A DNA stretch of 64,000 bases. Origin: Flavobacteria bacterium MS024-3C. Its GTDB lineage: Bacteria > Bacteroidota > Bacteroidia > Flavobacteriales > Flavobacteriaceae. Position numbers and translations under genes: made by a program. Below, one piece after another: positions 56,743-59,839 of the stretch. The notes below the pieces were generated by a model. It was given only the letters and a program-made list of their open reading frames with translations, ran no database searches and was not told the DNA's origin. The DNA is taken from contig ABVW01000001.1 of assembly GCA_000173115.1 (NCBI GenBank), positions 310,001 to 374,000 on the forward strand, in the 5' to 3' direction. Position 1 is the first letter of the stretch. Each line of letters starts with the position of its first letter.

Positions 56743-58641
56743 ATGAGCGACGCCATTAAACACGAATGTGGAATTTCATTAATCAGGCTCCTAAAGCCTC
56801 TCGAGTATTATAAAGAAAAATACGGCACCGCCTTTTACGGGGTAAACAAAATGTACCTCATGATGGAGAAGCAGCACAACAGGGGCCAAGACGGTGCTGG
56901 TTTTGCAAGTATTAAATTAGATATGCCGGCCGGCTCAAGGTATATGAGTAGGGTTCGCTCAGCGGAACAACAACCCATACAAGATATCTTTGCGCAGATT
57001 AACCAACGCATTAGTAGTGAGCTACAGGCCAATCCGGAATACCAAGACAGCGTAGCCTTACAAAAACAACATGTTCCTTATATTGGAGAATTGCTTTTAG
57101 GACACGTACGTTACGGTACTTTCGGAAAAAACTCCATTGAAAGTGTACATCCTTTTTTAAGACAAAACAACTGGATGCACAGAAACCTCATTGTGGCAGG
57201 TAACTTTAATATGACCAATGCCAAAGAGCTTTTTGAGAATTTAGTGACCCTAGGGCAACATCCTAAAGAAGACGCAGACACAGTGACTGTTATGGAAAAA
57301 ATAGGTCATTTCCTGGACGACGCCGTAGCCAAATTATACAAGCAAATTAAAAAAGAAGGCTACACCAAAATGGAAGCCTCAACGATTATTGCAGAGCGCC
57401 TCAATGTGGCCAAAATATTAAAAAAAGCCTGTAAGAATTTTGACGGAGGTTACGCCATGGCAGGTTTAATAGGCCATGGAGACGCTTTTGTCCTCAGAGA
57501 TCCTTCAGGTATTAGGCCTGCGTATTACTACGCAGACGAGGAGGTGGTTGTGGTAGCCTCAGAGCGTCCTGCGATTCAAACAGTGTTCAACGTGCCCTTT
57601 GAGCAGGTAAAAGAACTGGATCCTGGAAGCGCCATTCTCGTAAAAAAGAATGGCGAGATGAACATCAAACAAATTCTAGAACCTTTAGAACGCAAAGCCT
57701 GTTCCTTTGAACGAATTTATTTCTCTAGAGGGAGCGATAAAGAAATTTACCAGGAACGTAAAGCCCTTGGAAAATACCTTTTCCCACAAATTTTAGACAG
57801 TATAAAAGGAGACATTAGAAACACCGTATTCTCTTATATTCCCAATACAGCAGAAACCTCATTTTTCGGTATGGTCCGCGAAGCGCAAAACCATATGAAC
57901 AGAGAAAAAGAGGCACAAATTTTGGCCATTGGGAGAAACATTACTTCTGCAGAATTACACGAAATATTAGAAGTAAGACCCCGTATAGAGAAAGTGGCTA
58001 TTAAGGACGCCAAACTCAGGACCTTTATCACACAAGACTCCGGTAGAGATGACCTTGTTGCCCATGTATACGACGTGACCTATGGCTCGGTAAAAACAAC
58101 AGACAACCTAGTCATTATAGATGACTCCATTGTAAGGGGAACCACTTTGGAGAAAAGTATTTTAAAAATTTTAGACCGCTTAGGCCCTAAGAAAATAGTA
58201 GTGGTCTCTTCTGCGCCACAAATACGCTACCCGGATTGCTATGGAATAGACATGGCTAAGCTAGAAGACTTTATTGCTTTTAGAGCCGCTCTGGCACTCC
58301 ACAAAGACCGCAACACTATGAATGTAGTAGAAGGTATTTATAAAAAATGCCTGTCTCAGTTGGCGTCTAAAGACGCCGATGTCGTTAATTATGTCACAGA
58401 ATTTTACGCCCCTTTCACTGTGGAAGAAATCTCTGCAAAAATTGGGGAGCTACTCACTGGCCCAGAAATAAAAGCTGAGGTAGAGATTGTGTACCAAACC
58501 ATAGAAAACCTTCATTTGGCCTGTCCGGAAAACTTAGGAGACTGGTATTTTACCGGAGACTATCCTACTCCAGGAGGAAATAGGGTGGTGAATAGGGCTT
58601 TTGTAAACTTTTTTGAGGGTAAAAACGAGAGAGCCTATTAA
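56743..58641 (+). CDS. purF: amidophosphoribosyltransferase (long Bacteroidota form)
   Basis: First committed step of purine synthesis: PRPP plus glutamine gives phosphoribosylamine. 632 residues, about 130 longer than the classical enzyme, which is usual in Bacteroidota. The glutaminase nucleophile is Cys9 after an 8-residue leader (MSDAIKHE-C); the PRPP loop VIIDDSIVRGTTL is near 465. Extra residues lie mainly in the glutaminase domain loops and in a C-terminal tail. Followed by a 589-bp gap with two small-RNA candidates, not by another protein gene. Confidence 0.93.
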   Translation: MSDAIKHECGISLIRLLKPLEYYKEKYGTAFYGVNKMYLMMEKQHNRGQDGAGFASIKLDMPAGSRYMSRVRSAEQQPIQDIFAQINQRISSELQANPEYQDSVALQKQHVPYIGELLLGHVRYGTFGKNSIESVHPFLRQNNWMHRNLIVAGNFNMTNAKELFENLVTLGQHPKEDADTVTVMEKIGHFLDDAVAKLYKQIKKEGYTKMEASTIIAERLNVAKILKKACKNFDGGYAMAGLIGHGDAFVLRDPSGIRPAYYYADEEVVVVASERPAIQTVFNVPFEQVKELDPGSAILVKKNGEMNIKQILEPLERKACSFERIYFSRGSDKEIYQERKALGKYLFPQILDSIKGDIRNTVFSYIPNTAETSFFGMVREAQNHMNREKEAQILAIGRNITSAELHEILEVRPRIEKVAIKDAKLRTFITQDSGRDDLVAHVYDVTYGSVKTTDNLVIIDDSIVRGTTLEKSILKILDRLGPKKIVVVSSAPQIRYPDCYGIDMAKLEDFIAFRAALALHKDRNTMNVVEGIYKKCLSQLASKDADVVNYVTEFYAPFTVEEISAKIGELLTGPEIKAEVEIVYQTIENLHLACPENLGDWYFTGDYPTPGGNRVVNRAFVNFFEGKNERAY

Positions 58642-58717
58642 GAAAGTTCTTTTAAAAGGCCTCAAGAATATTAAATTAAGGGCTAAAATACCATCAAATG
58701 TTAAAAAAAAGTGCCGT

Positions 58718-58744
58718 TCATCGAAAAAACATGTAGATCATCGA
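58718..58744 (+). repeat. pair of TCATCGA direct repeats upstream of the first small-RNA unit
   Basis: TCATCGA at 58718-58724 and 58738-58744, start-to-start 20 bp, on the same strand and about 45-70 bp before the predicted RNA start. Direct repeats about two helical turns apart are the known binding pattern of LytTR-type response regulators, which are common in flavobacteria. No such pair precedes the second unit. Confidence 0.4.
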
Positions 58745-58787
58745 GTTTATTTTTTTCTAGCATTAAGAGCAGCTACATTTATGAAAC

Positions 58788-58853
58788 CATAAACAATTAG
58801 GTTACGTTCTTGGTAAGATTTGGGGAAAAAGGCGGACAGTTGTCCGCCTTTTT
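58788..58853 (+). ncRNA. candidate small RNA A of a tandem paralogous pair
   Basis: Preceded by a near-consensus -7 box (TACATTTA, 58774-58781). The conserved core is 58798-58824 (begins TAGGTTAC, ends GATTTGGG), then a terminator with GGCGGAC at 58831-58837 pairing with GTCCGCC at 58842-58848, A-tract before and six Ts after. Core matches the sister unit at 59081-59107 at 24 of 27 positions. The core is poor in C and unpaired, as expected for a target-binding region. No reading frame of credible length is present. Confidence 0.55.
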
Positions 58854-59014
58854 TATACGATCATTTTATTTTGTCATAGAAATAATTCCTTTTTTAAACT
58901 AGATAAATAAAATATTCATAAGGTTATGTTTAATGATAAGAATTTGTCAAAAAATCAATTGATACTTTAAACAAAAATGAGTGGTTTTTAAAATTATTGC
59001 TGCTATTGCTAAAA

Positions 59015-59030
59015 TAGATAAGCATATCTA
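59015..59030. promoter_or_regulatory. inverted repeat upstream of the second small-RNA unit
   Basis: TAGATA (59015-59020) and TATCTA (59025-59030) around AGCA, about 24 bp upstream of the -7 box of unit B, where an activator normally sits. Unit A has no such site, so the two units may be under different regulators. Confidence 0.35.
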
Positions 59031-59053
59031 ATGGAATCCATAAATAAATAATG

Positions 59054-59061
59054 TATTTTTG
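59054..59061 (+). promoter_or_regulatory. -7 box for small RNA B
   Basis: TATTTTTG followed by CAG, a perfect TAnnTTTG; predicted start near 59068. No TTG at -33, consistent with an activator-dependent promoter. Confidence 0.5.
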
Positions 59062-59067
59062 CAGCAT

Positions 59068-59140
59068 ACCATGGCATAAGTAGGTTAAGTTTATGGTAAG
59101 ATTTGGGAGAGAAAAGGTGGTGCTTGCACTACCTTTTCTT
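59068..59140 (+). ncRNA. candidate small RNA B of a tandem paralogous pair
   Basis: Follows a perfect -7 box. Core 59081-59107 (begins TAGGTTAA, ends GATTTGGG) matches unit A. It ends in a 12- to 13-bp terminator hairpin: 59111-59123 with 59126-59138 (one G-T pair), then TTAT. The T tract is shorter than in unit A. The start context ACCAT is also shared with unit A (58785-58789 and 59067-59072). The segment between the units, 58856-59014, is plain AT-rich DNA. Confidence 0.6.
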
Positions 59141-59144
59141 ATAT

Positions 59145-59181
59145 AAAAAAGGCGCGGTTCTTAGAGAACCGCGCCTTTTTT
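59145..59181. terminator. bidirectional intrinsic terminator, end of sod
   Basis: GGCGCGGTTCT (59151-59161) pairs exactly with its complement (59165-59175) around TAG, flanked by six As and six Ts. On the minus strand it ends the superoxide dismutase gene; on the plus strand it is a backup for small RNA B. Confidence 0.92.
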
Positions 59182-59230: not shown

Positions 59231-59839
59231 TTATTTATTCGCTTCGAACAAAGCAGTAGCGTTGGACCAGTTAATCACATTAAAAAATGCATTTACATAA
59301 TCCGGTCTTCTGTTTTGATAGTTCAGGTAATAGGCGTGCTCCCAAACATCTAAACCTAAGATAGGAAAACCACCACAGCCAATTCCTGGCATGAGTGGAT
59401 TGTCTTGGTTTGGTGTAGAACACACTTCAAGTTTACCCCCTTTGTGAACACAAAGCCAGGCCCAACCAGAACCAAATCTTGTGGCTGCAGCTTTAGAGAA
59501 AGTTTCTTTAAAAGCGTTAAAAGAACCAAAAGAAGCGTCAATTGCAGCCGCTAAATCTCCACTTGGAGTGCCGCCGCCATTTGGCGCCATAGACTTCCAA
59601 AAAAGGTTGTGGTTATAAAAACCACCTCCATTGTTTCTTACCGCCCCATTATTGAGGTCTAAATCTGCCAGTATTGTTTCAATAGAAGCGCCCTCCATTG
59701 CTGAACCAGCAATAGCAGCGTTTAAATTATTTGTGTATCCTTGGTGGTGTTTACCGTGGTGAATTTCCATAGTACGCGCATCTACATGAGGTTCTAATGC
59801 GTCGTGAGCATAATCTAATTGAGGTAATTCAAAAGCCAT
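59231..59839 (-). CDS. superoxide dismutase, Mn/Fe type
   Basis: Removes superoxide in the cytoplasm. 202 residues. Metal ligands His27 (IHHGKHHQ), His77 (NHNLFW), Asp164 and His168 (LDVWEHAYY). Whether Mn, Fe or both is used cannot be told. Its promoter TAAATTTG is at 59868-59875 on the minus strand. It is monocistronic, opposed to the two RNA units, and convergent with them; cross-talk between those RNAs and its own mRNA is possible in principle. Confidence 0.96.

Follow-up and report, generated by a model that had tools for sequence, protein, structure and literature searches.

The two short units that lie between purF and sod in the window, the 64,000-nt stretch of DNA analysed here, are very probably genes of a trans-acting, multicopy small RNA (sRNA) that would limit the translation of co-regulated surface lipoproteins and would itself be titrated by decoy RNAs. 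We infer the transcription of the units, the sign of the regulation, the regulator and the titration from sequence. The likely targets are mRNAs of surface lipoproteins together with the decoy RNAs, and the antisense matches found in both suggest a shared circuit of cell-surface control in the Flavobacteriaceae. These bacteria are major degraders of polymers in sea and fresh water, and to our knowledge little is known about their post-transcriptional control. About four fifths of the family genomes examined contain this sRNA. With its nearly invariant pairing parts, candidate targets and sponges and a shared promoter element, it offers an entry to such a network.

Two sRNA-like units in the purF-sod gap

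The gap is bounded on the left by a 632-aa ORF at 56743..58641 on the plus strand, which we take by recognition to be purF (amidophosphoribosyltransferase), and on the right by a 202-aa ORF at 59231..59839 on the minus strand, presumably sod (Fe/Mn superoxide dismutase; also named by recognition). A preliminary description of this DNA had proposed that the gap holds paralogous sRNA-like units with a common segment and separate promoters and terminators, and the comparative data support this. The two 27-nt cores on which that proposal was built lie at exactly 58798-58824 and 59081-59107, are identical at 24 of 27 positions and are closed by the same 14-nt block, TGGTAAGATTTGGG. The ACCAT start context it had named is present in both copies (58786 and 59068), as are a -7 box of the TAnnTTTG kind, judged by eye (TACATTTA and TATTTTTG), and an own hairpin with a T-run directly after each core (fold z -3.98 and -3.51). 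The conserved unit is about 41 nt long, consisting of a hairpin and a linker, and the 27-nt core is a part of it.

With up to two mismatches, TGGTAAGATTTGGG occurs at two places in the whole window, both of them the cores. This count alone is not significant (chance mean 0.79, and two or more places in 19 of 100 shuffles); the units stand beyond chance because near-identical units recur across the family. A third copy of TGGTAAGATTTGGG in the window's own genome (C20:158653) was rejected as a unit, as it reads by eye as gyrB/parE-like coding sequence.

Copy 1 is of the regular type and spans ca 58786..58856 on the plus strand, with ends estimated from the fold and from a 49.4-bit match (G000:C21:368786-368825) to R1, a covariance model of the 41-nt part that was used at a threshold of E <= 0.001. 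Its -7 box TACATTTA (58774..58781, +) is located at -12 to -5, matching the logo of 213 units. Further upstream there are two repeats of an element as in the promoters of the predicted targets: GCCGTTCATCGAAAAAACAT at 58713..58732 (+), with a matrix score of 19.3 and its core at -65, and GTAGATCATCGAGTTTATTT at 58733..58752 (+), recognised by eye, whose core at -45 coincides with the second peak in other units. The loop of copy 1 is diverged (ACAATTAGGTTACG). It is followed by the linker AAGATTTGGGG (58815..58825, +), a predicted pairing segment that is either long or 1 nt shorter in 208 of 213 units, and by a terminator hairpin placed by folding at 58825..58854 (+).

Copy 2, at ca 59068..59142 on the plus strand (66.6 bits to R1, ends again estimated), is of the array-final type according to its TTTATGG and TTTGGGA signature, and the upstream element is absent (matrix score -7.4). 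The -7 box TATTTTTG at 59054..59061 (+) precedes a 5' hairpin at 59068..59097 (+; folding and structure test) with the loop AAGTAGGTTAAG, the linker AAGATTTGGGA at 59098..59108 (+) and a terminator hairpin at 59109..59140 (+; folding). The two window copies differ, in other words, in promoter type. Between copy 2 and sod there is a two-way terminator at 59145..59181, recognised by eye from its GC-rich, perfect inverted repeat and from a T-run on either strand. A 17-codon ORF in copy 2, MVRFGREKVVLALPFLI (59093-59146), runs across the terminator; as a micro-ORF it was discarded, the frame not being kept across the family, where the linker length varies.

The gap was also searched against Rfam, Flavo-1 included, and the window has no family at cut-off; with Rfam 15 there were no matches above the gathering score in the window or in seven array loci. 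At relaxed E-values, 74 rows were obtained for the purF-sod gap, every one below its own cut-off and mostly terminator hairpins, and Flavo-1 was absent from them. ARAGORN found no tRNA or tmRNA in the window. The cores do not occur merely as the ends of long mRNAs, since the units have their own -7 box. The suggestion that the duplication serves to widen regulation is not borne out: the pairing parts are nearly identical between the copies, so that dosage and different inputs fit better.

Family-wide distribution, fold and promoters

Matches to R1 are found in 315 of the 397 genomes of the window's GTDB family, with 1-7 copies each; for good-quality genomes the number is 280/329 and by genus 196/237. 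At least four of the single-copy matches are weak (E 3e-4 to 8e-4). A draw of 246 genomes from the order gave R1 in 37, that is, 37/47 genomes of the own family and 0/199 of other families, as assigned from the complete list for this draw. In 92 unit-bearing loci, some of them from the same genome, tblastn detects a purF homologue in 89, a sod homologue in 75 and both in 72, and in all 72 of the latter every unit lies between purF and sod. Among the matches listed, an exact scan of genome contigs for TGGTAAGATTTGGG gave many chance hits together with arrays in which 2-6 units follow one another, mostly at intervals of about 200 nt; these arrays come from Maribacter, Zobellia, Flagellimonas/Allomuricauda/Muricauda, Pricia, Eudoraea, Arenibacter and others. 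Copies within an array are very similar.

A member of the family begins with a 5' hairpin of 30 nt, continues with the unpaired 11-nt linker AAGAUUUGGGG and ends in a terminator. The consensus of the family is ACCAUAGCAUAAGUAGGUUAAGUUCAUGGUAAGAUUUGGGG, after which comes a hairpin of variable sequence; in each window unit the conserved block ends in AAGATTTGGG. In the predicted fold the 5' hairpin is closed by ACCAU/AUGGU and the linker is unpaired before the terminator (z -3.5 to -4.95 for six examples), the 5' hairpin being weaker in window copy 1 according to folding. The linker is long in 155 and 1 nt shorter in 53 of 213 distinct units. The shorter variant is that of the large genus g128, by inference Flavobacterium, where part of the inner UAA/UUA pairing is missing; judging from the sequence, this fits an open loop. 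A terminator hairpin of -8 kcal/mol or better with a T-run is present in 204/213 units.

When the pairing was examined on 11 distinct sequences, 95.8% of the cells were found to pair, a value reached by 153/500 shuffles, and covariation in the hairpin is not significant on the same number of distinct sequences (126/500 shuffles). The structural evidence is modest; the RNA is too conserved for such a test. A helix obtained with RNAalifold on the raw alignment was set aside, as it conflicts with the single-sequence folds and probably stems from terminators shifted by MAFFT. The RNA family appears to be undescribed, and its units carry what look like an own promoter and an intrinsic terminator, as expected for a trans-acting sRNA.

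We now consider the promoters. In the logo of the 213 distinct units, positions -12 to -5 read TAnnTTTG and positions -36 to -33 form a T-tract, and two blocks ca 21 nt apart, near -70 and -49, are half conserved. The array-final unit often has a different promoter, CACAATACCAGTAATTTAGT (36/213 units by a set rule), along with the TTTATGG...TTTGGGA signature; window copy 2 has the signature and lacks this promoter block. In many array-final units (for example L125, L127 and L131) a distinct, strongly conserved promoter block CTTTGTTATTTCTCACAATACCAGTAATTTAGT can be seen, which suggests another regulator.

The upstream element was described by a 20-nt weight matrix (consensus GTATTTCATCGAAAATAAAA) learned from 26 promoters, 22 of targets, 4 of decoys and none of the sRNA. 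Among the regular sRNA promoters, 108/177 score above 6, compared to 2% of shuffles, and 69/177 do not exceed 6; the matches cluster at -65 to -68 and at -45 to -47. Only 2/36 array-final promoters score above 6. Of the 88 loci that have a regular unit, 77 include one or more such units with a score above 8. The same score is exceeded by 24/33 lipoprotein leaders, which are outside the learning set, and by 1/68 sod promoters. These units and loci are related by descent, and hence the counts are not independent. The background is 7/266 regions above 8, with the qualifications that some of its loci had been chosen for seed matches, which makes it a non-neutral sample, and that two of the seven, L418 (the top one) and L432, themselves carry antisense sites. 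It replaces an earlier background that still held lipoprotein loci (31/248 above 8). The fixed spacing of the element beside the -33 region suggests an activator.

Antisense sites at start codons and in decoy-like RNAs

Thirty complete genomes were scanned with two seed patterns designed to avoid ordinary sRNA genes. For the single 10-nt linker seed there is no genome-wide enrichment (85 vs 78 in the control, 30 genomes), and the single 10-nt loop seed gives 45 vs 443 in the same genomes, with a control that is likely inflated by codon use. Combined with an ATG, the loop seed is not raised (65 vs 154 control) and the linker seed is slightly raised (157 vs 117 control). Among 60 fetched seed loci, two matches, from different genomes and to different seeds, were found just 5' of the starts of homologous lipoproteins of ca 205-217 aa.

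Homologues of this lipoprotein are present in 32/149 genomes. It belongs to no Pfam or NCBIfam family, the one NCBIfam row being a chance match (E 0.026, 13.8 bits vs a cut-off of 380). In the 60 nt 5' of the start, 15/33 leaders contain an exact antisense run of 10-16 nt, whereas the chance of a run of at least 10 nt is 0.0067 per leader according to shuffles, and both the backwards antisense and the sense controls give 0/33. The other 18/33 have runs of 8 nt or less. In these counts the paralogues L381 and L382 are entered separately, and the start of L367 is miscalled, by which its antisense site is lost. The type of antisense differs by genome, with the loop type TTAACCTACTTA in some and the linker type CCCCAAATCTWA in others.

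A two-part pattern, CCCAAATCTN{2,10}AACCTAC, in which the gap excludes most sRNA genes, was then found at 51 places in 39/299 family genomes, compared to 5 for the reversed control. The sRNA is present in 39/39 of these genomes (lists compared by eye). In the 199 other-family genomes of the order draw the pattern shows no excess (3 vs 2 control), the three places being coding sequence by eye, and in the 47 own-family genomes of that draw it has 7 places, four of them sRNA-gene-like, with none in the control. Both sets of candidate targets cover few genomes, that is, 32/149 for the lipoprotein and 39/299 for the two-part pattern.

The 51 places divide into 27 start-codon sites, 16 decoy-like RNAs, one 3' UTR, three sRNA genes (L465 with two places, and L470) and four that are coding or unclear (L473, L490 and L498 read as coding, L452 unclear), the last two groups being left out of the targets. 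The 27 start-codon sites lie over the start codon or 1-8 nt upstream of it; two of the starts are TTG and one ORF is very short. Eight of the sites belong to a large lipoprotein beginning SCSDETTV, six to a 123-aa lipoprotein, three to a CAP-domain lipoprotein (Pfam for one, the others by eye) and three to a CxxC protein of 77-79 aa, and the remaining seven occur once each, a subtilase and a metallo-beta-lactamase-fold protein being among them. One more two-part site, in the g128 genome G582 of the order draw (L503), is located directly 5' of the ATG of a 499-aa protein.

The decoy-like RNAs are of two kinds that look separate in origin judging from their sequences. Five short units (L471, L480, L482, L486 and L493, from five genomes) consist of a promoter-like sequence, an antisense block and a terminator, with no ORF of 60 aa or more, and their promoter regions resemble one another (the clearest example has CTTGACAACTATT...GCATCTTTG). 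The multi-site units, at 11 places (L455, L456, L466 (from its sequence), L468, L472, L475-L477, L494, L496 and L500), are longer, with 2-5 tandem antisense sites and, in nearly all, a TTTCATCGATTTA-like element upstream. Both kinds have, by sequence, the property of a sponge, namely a separate RNA with extended complementarity to the sRNA. Several multi-site units adjoin gene ends that by eye are scoB-like and ABC-transporter-like. The 3' UTR case (L481 in G154) has its two-part site directly 5' of a terminator and is possibly a 3'UTR-derived sponge.

Duplex energies were calculated for 62 pairs, comprising 24 of the 27 start-codon sites, the 5 short decoys and the 33 lipoprotein leaders; L467, L485, L488 and the multi-site decoys are outside this set. 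The median z over the 62 pairs, decoys included, is -2.1, and several targets are near zero. The strongest duplexes are those of the short decoys with the sRNA (-41 to -50 kcal/mol, z -3.5 to -6.3).

A conserved, predicted unpaired segment is, in summary of these sites, complementary to the translation starts of remote genes, with a signal that is weak or absent in the window's own genome. This genome is 64% complete, and the 205-217-aa lipoprotein was not found in it. For CCCAAATC followed by an ATG there is no excess (21 vs 21 control, sRNA genes included), and only two leader sites are plausible. They lie upstream of a LuxR-type response regulator (G000:C21:12044-12070, L520) and of a 453-aa secreted protein (C21:407844-407861, L528), both named by eye and both candidate targets. 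The neighbouring sod was considered as a target and dismissed: no conserved antisense was seen by eye in 69 sod upstream regions, and the run of ca 10 nt in the window's sod leader, ATAAACTTAA, is therefore ascribed to chance.

Two further observations concern loci mentioned above as background. L432 and, in another genus, L329 contain NAD-dependent epimerase-like genes (by eye) with linker antisense directly 5' of the ATG, likely another recurrent target. L418 encodes a secreted protein with AACCTACTTA 5' of its ATG and has the best matrix score of the background, 21.2.

Proposed circuit, alternatives and known systems

In the mechanism that we propose, each copy would give an RNA of ca 70-75 nt from its own promoter to its own terminator, in which the loop of the hairpin, AAGUAGGUUAAG, and the linker, AAGAUUUGGGG, stay unpaired and available. 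The loop, the linker or both would pair with mRNAs of surface lipoproteins or secreted proteins at sites that overlap the start codon or immediately precede it, which most likely blocks translation. Since the promoter element GTATTTCATCGAAAA is common to the targets and to the regular sRNA copies of most loci, both are probably activated by one regulator. Under the condition to which this regulator responds, the lipoprotein mRNAs and the sRNA would rise together and the sRNA would limit the output, as in a feed-forward arrangement. The array-final copy, usually without the element, may give a baseline, and in some genera decoys with 1-5 antisense sites would titrate the free sRNA.

A more far-reaching version, which we favour with moderate confidence, makes the purF-sod array the hub of a family-wide regulon. 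One regulator, acting at GTATTTCATCGAAAA, would drive the lipoproteins, the two-site sRNA that restrains them and, in some genera, the multi-site sponge that relieves the restraint; the dose would be set by the copy number of 1-7 and by the regulator-independent array-final copy, and sponges would have arisen at least twice. Pairing through loop and linker, with the apparent repeated emergence of sponges, would then be a natural experiment on the tuning of sRNA dosage.

Three other explanations were weighed. CsrB and 6S RNA act by binding protein, and the present RNA could likewise be mainly a protein ligand whose antisense sites are incidental. About 40 nt are extremely conserved, stem positions too, which would fit, and the accessible part of PMC11697453 reports that RbpB of Bacteroides binds the paralogous FopS RNAs. 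From protein binding alone, however, one would expect neither antisense runs immediately 5' of the starts of unrelated genes, for which the controls are clean, nor small complementary decoy-like RNAs, and we regard this explanation as improbable; a protein partner besides the pairing could exist.

It is still less probable that the units are transcription attenuators, leader peptides or mere terminators of purF read-through. The 17-codon ORF of copy 2 does run from an ATG in the core into the terminator, and inspection just past purF revealed no strong terminator (both by eye). Against this, sod, which comes next, lies on the other strand and leaves nothing downstream to attenuate, the units have their own -7 box and a promoter element in common with remote genes, and the ORF frame shifts with the linker that is 1 nt shorter in 53/213 units. 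Finally, mobile or repetitive DNA that multiplies by copying itself and has no role in regulation would account for the variable copy number (1-7) and for the similarity of array copies, but is hardly credible given the one syntenic site in 72/72 loci with both flanks and the absence of units in an exact motif scan of fetched viral-contig stretches.

Among known systems, the trans-acting sRNA proposed here may be likened to Qrr1-5, OmrA/B and MicL/RybB/MicA of the Gammaproteobacteria, which are multicopy or envelope-stress sRNAs, several of them repressing outer-membrane proteins or lipoproteins under one regulator, and which depend on Hfq. SroC, 3'ETS-leuZ and the ChiX trap are bacterial sponges that sequester an sRNA via base pairing. 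The decoys of the purF-sod RNA differ in being of two types, one short and single-site with its own promoter-like sequence and terminator, the other longer, with 2-5 sites under the target-type element.

The nearest analogue is found in the same phylum. According to the accessible part of PMC11697453, the FopS/GibS RNAs of Bacteroides (GibS being RF04182) are multicopy paralogous sRNAs of ca 65-70 nt with a common 5' segment, and FopS pairs with mRNAs of surface proteins (susC homologues) at their start codons. The purF-sod RNA resembles them in being multicopy and paralogous, with start-codon sites, here predicted, in mRNAs of surface proteins. As far as that part of the paper goes, the FopS copies are scattered over separate loci, as intergenic, antisense or 3'-UTR genes, in contrast to the tandem array at a fixed locus, and FopS acts via a 5'-end seed, whereas the predicted pairing parts here are the hairpin loop and the linker; decoy RNAs, for which there are candidates here, are not mentioned for FopS in it. 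The GibS model (RF04182) reaches 22 bits in the purF-sod gap vs a cut-off of 115. Run on whole genomes, it recovers a match in the control, Bacteroides ihuae, and none in the window's own genome.

A literature search by text, including sequence fragments, found no description of the purF-sod RNA among the papers listed (its scope held no bioRxiv and few subscription papers). In the portion of PMC9723704 at hand, 85 new RNAs of Flavobacterium psychrophilum are described and Rfp18 is studied, a conserved flavobacterial sRNA whose deletion alters the levels of secreted-protease mRNAs. There, the third stem-loop of Rfp18 is predicted to pair with metalloprotease mRNAs; the predicted fold of the purF-sod RNA has one hairpin and a terminator. 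The F. psychrophilum copy of the purF-sod RNA may be listed among the Rfp RNAs of PMC9723704, without a function.
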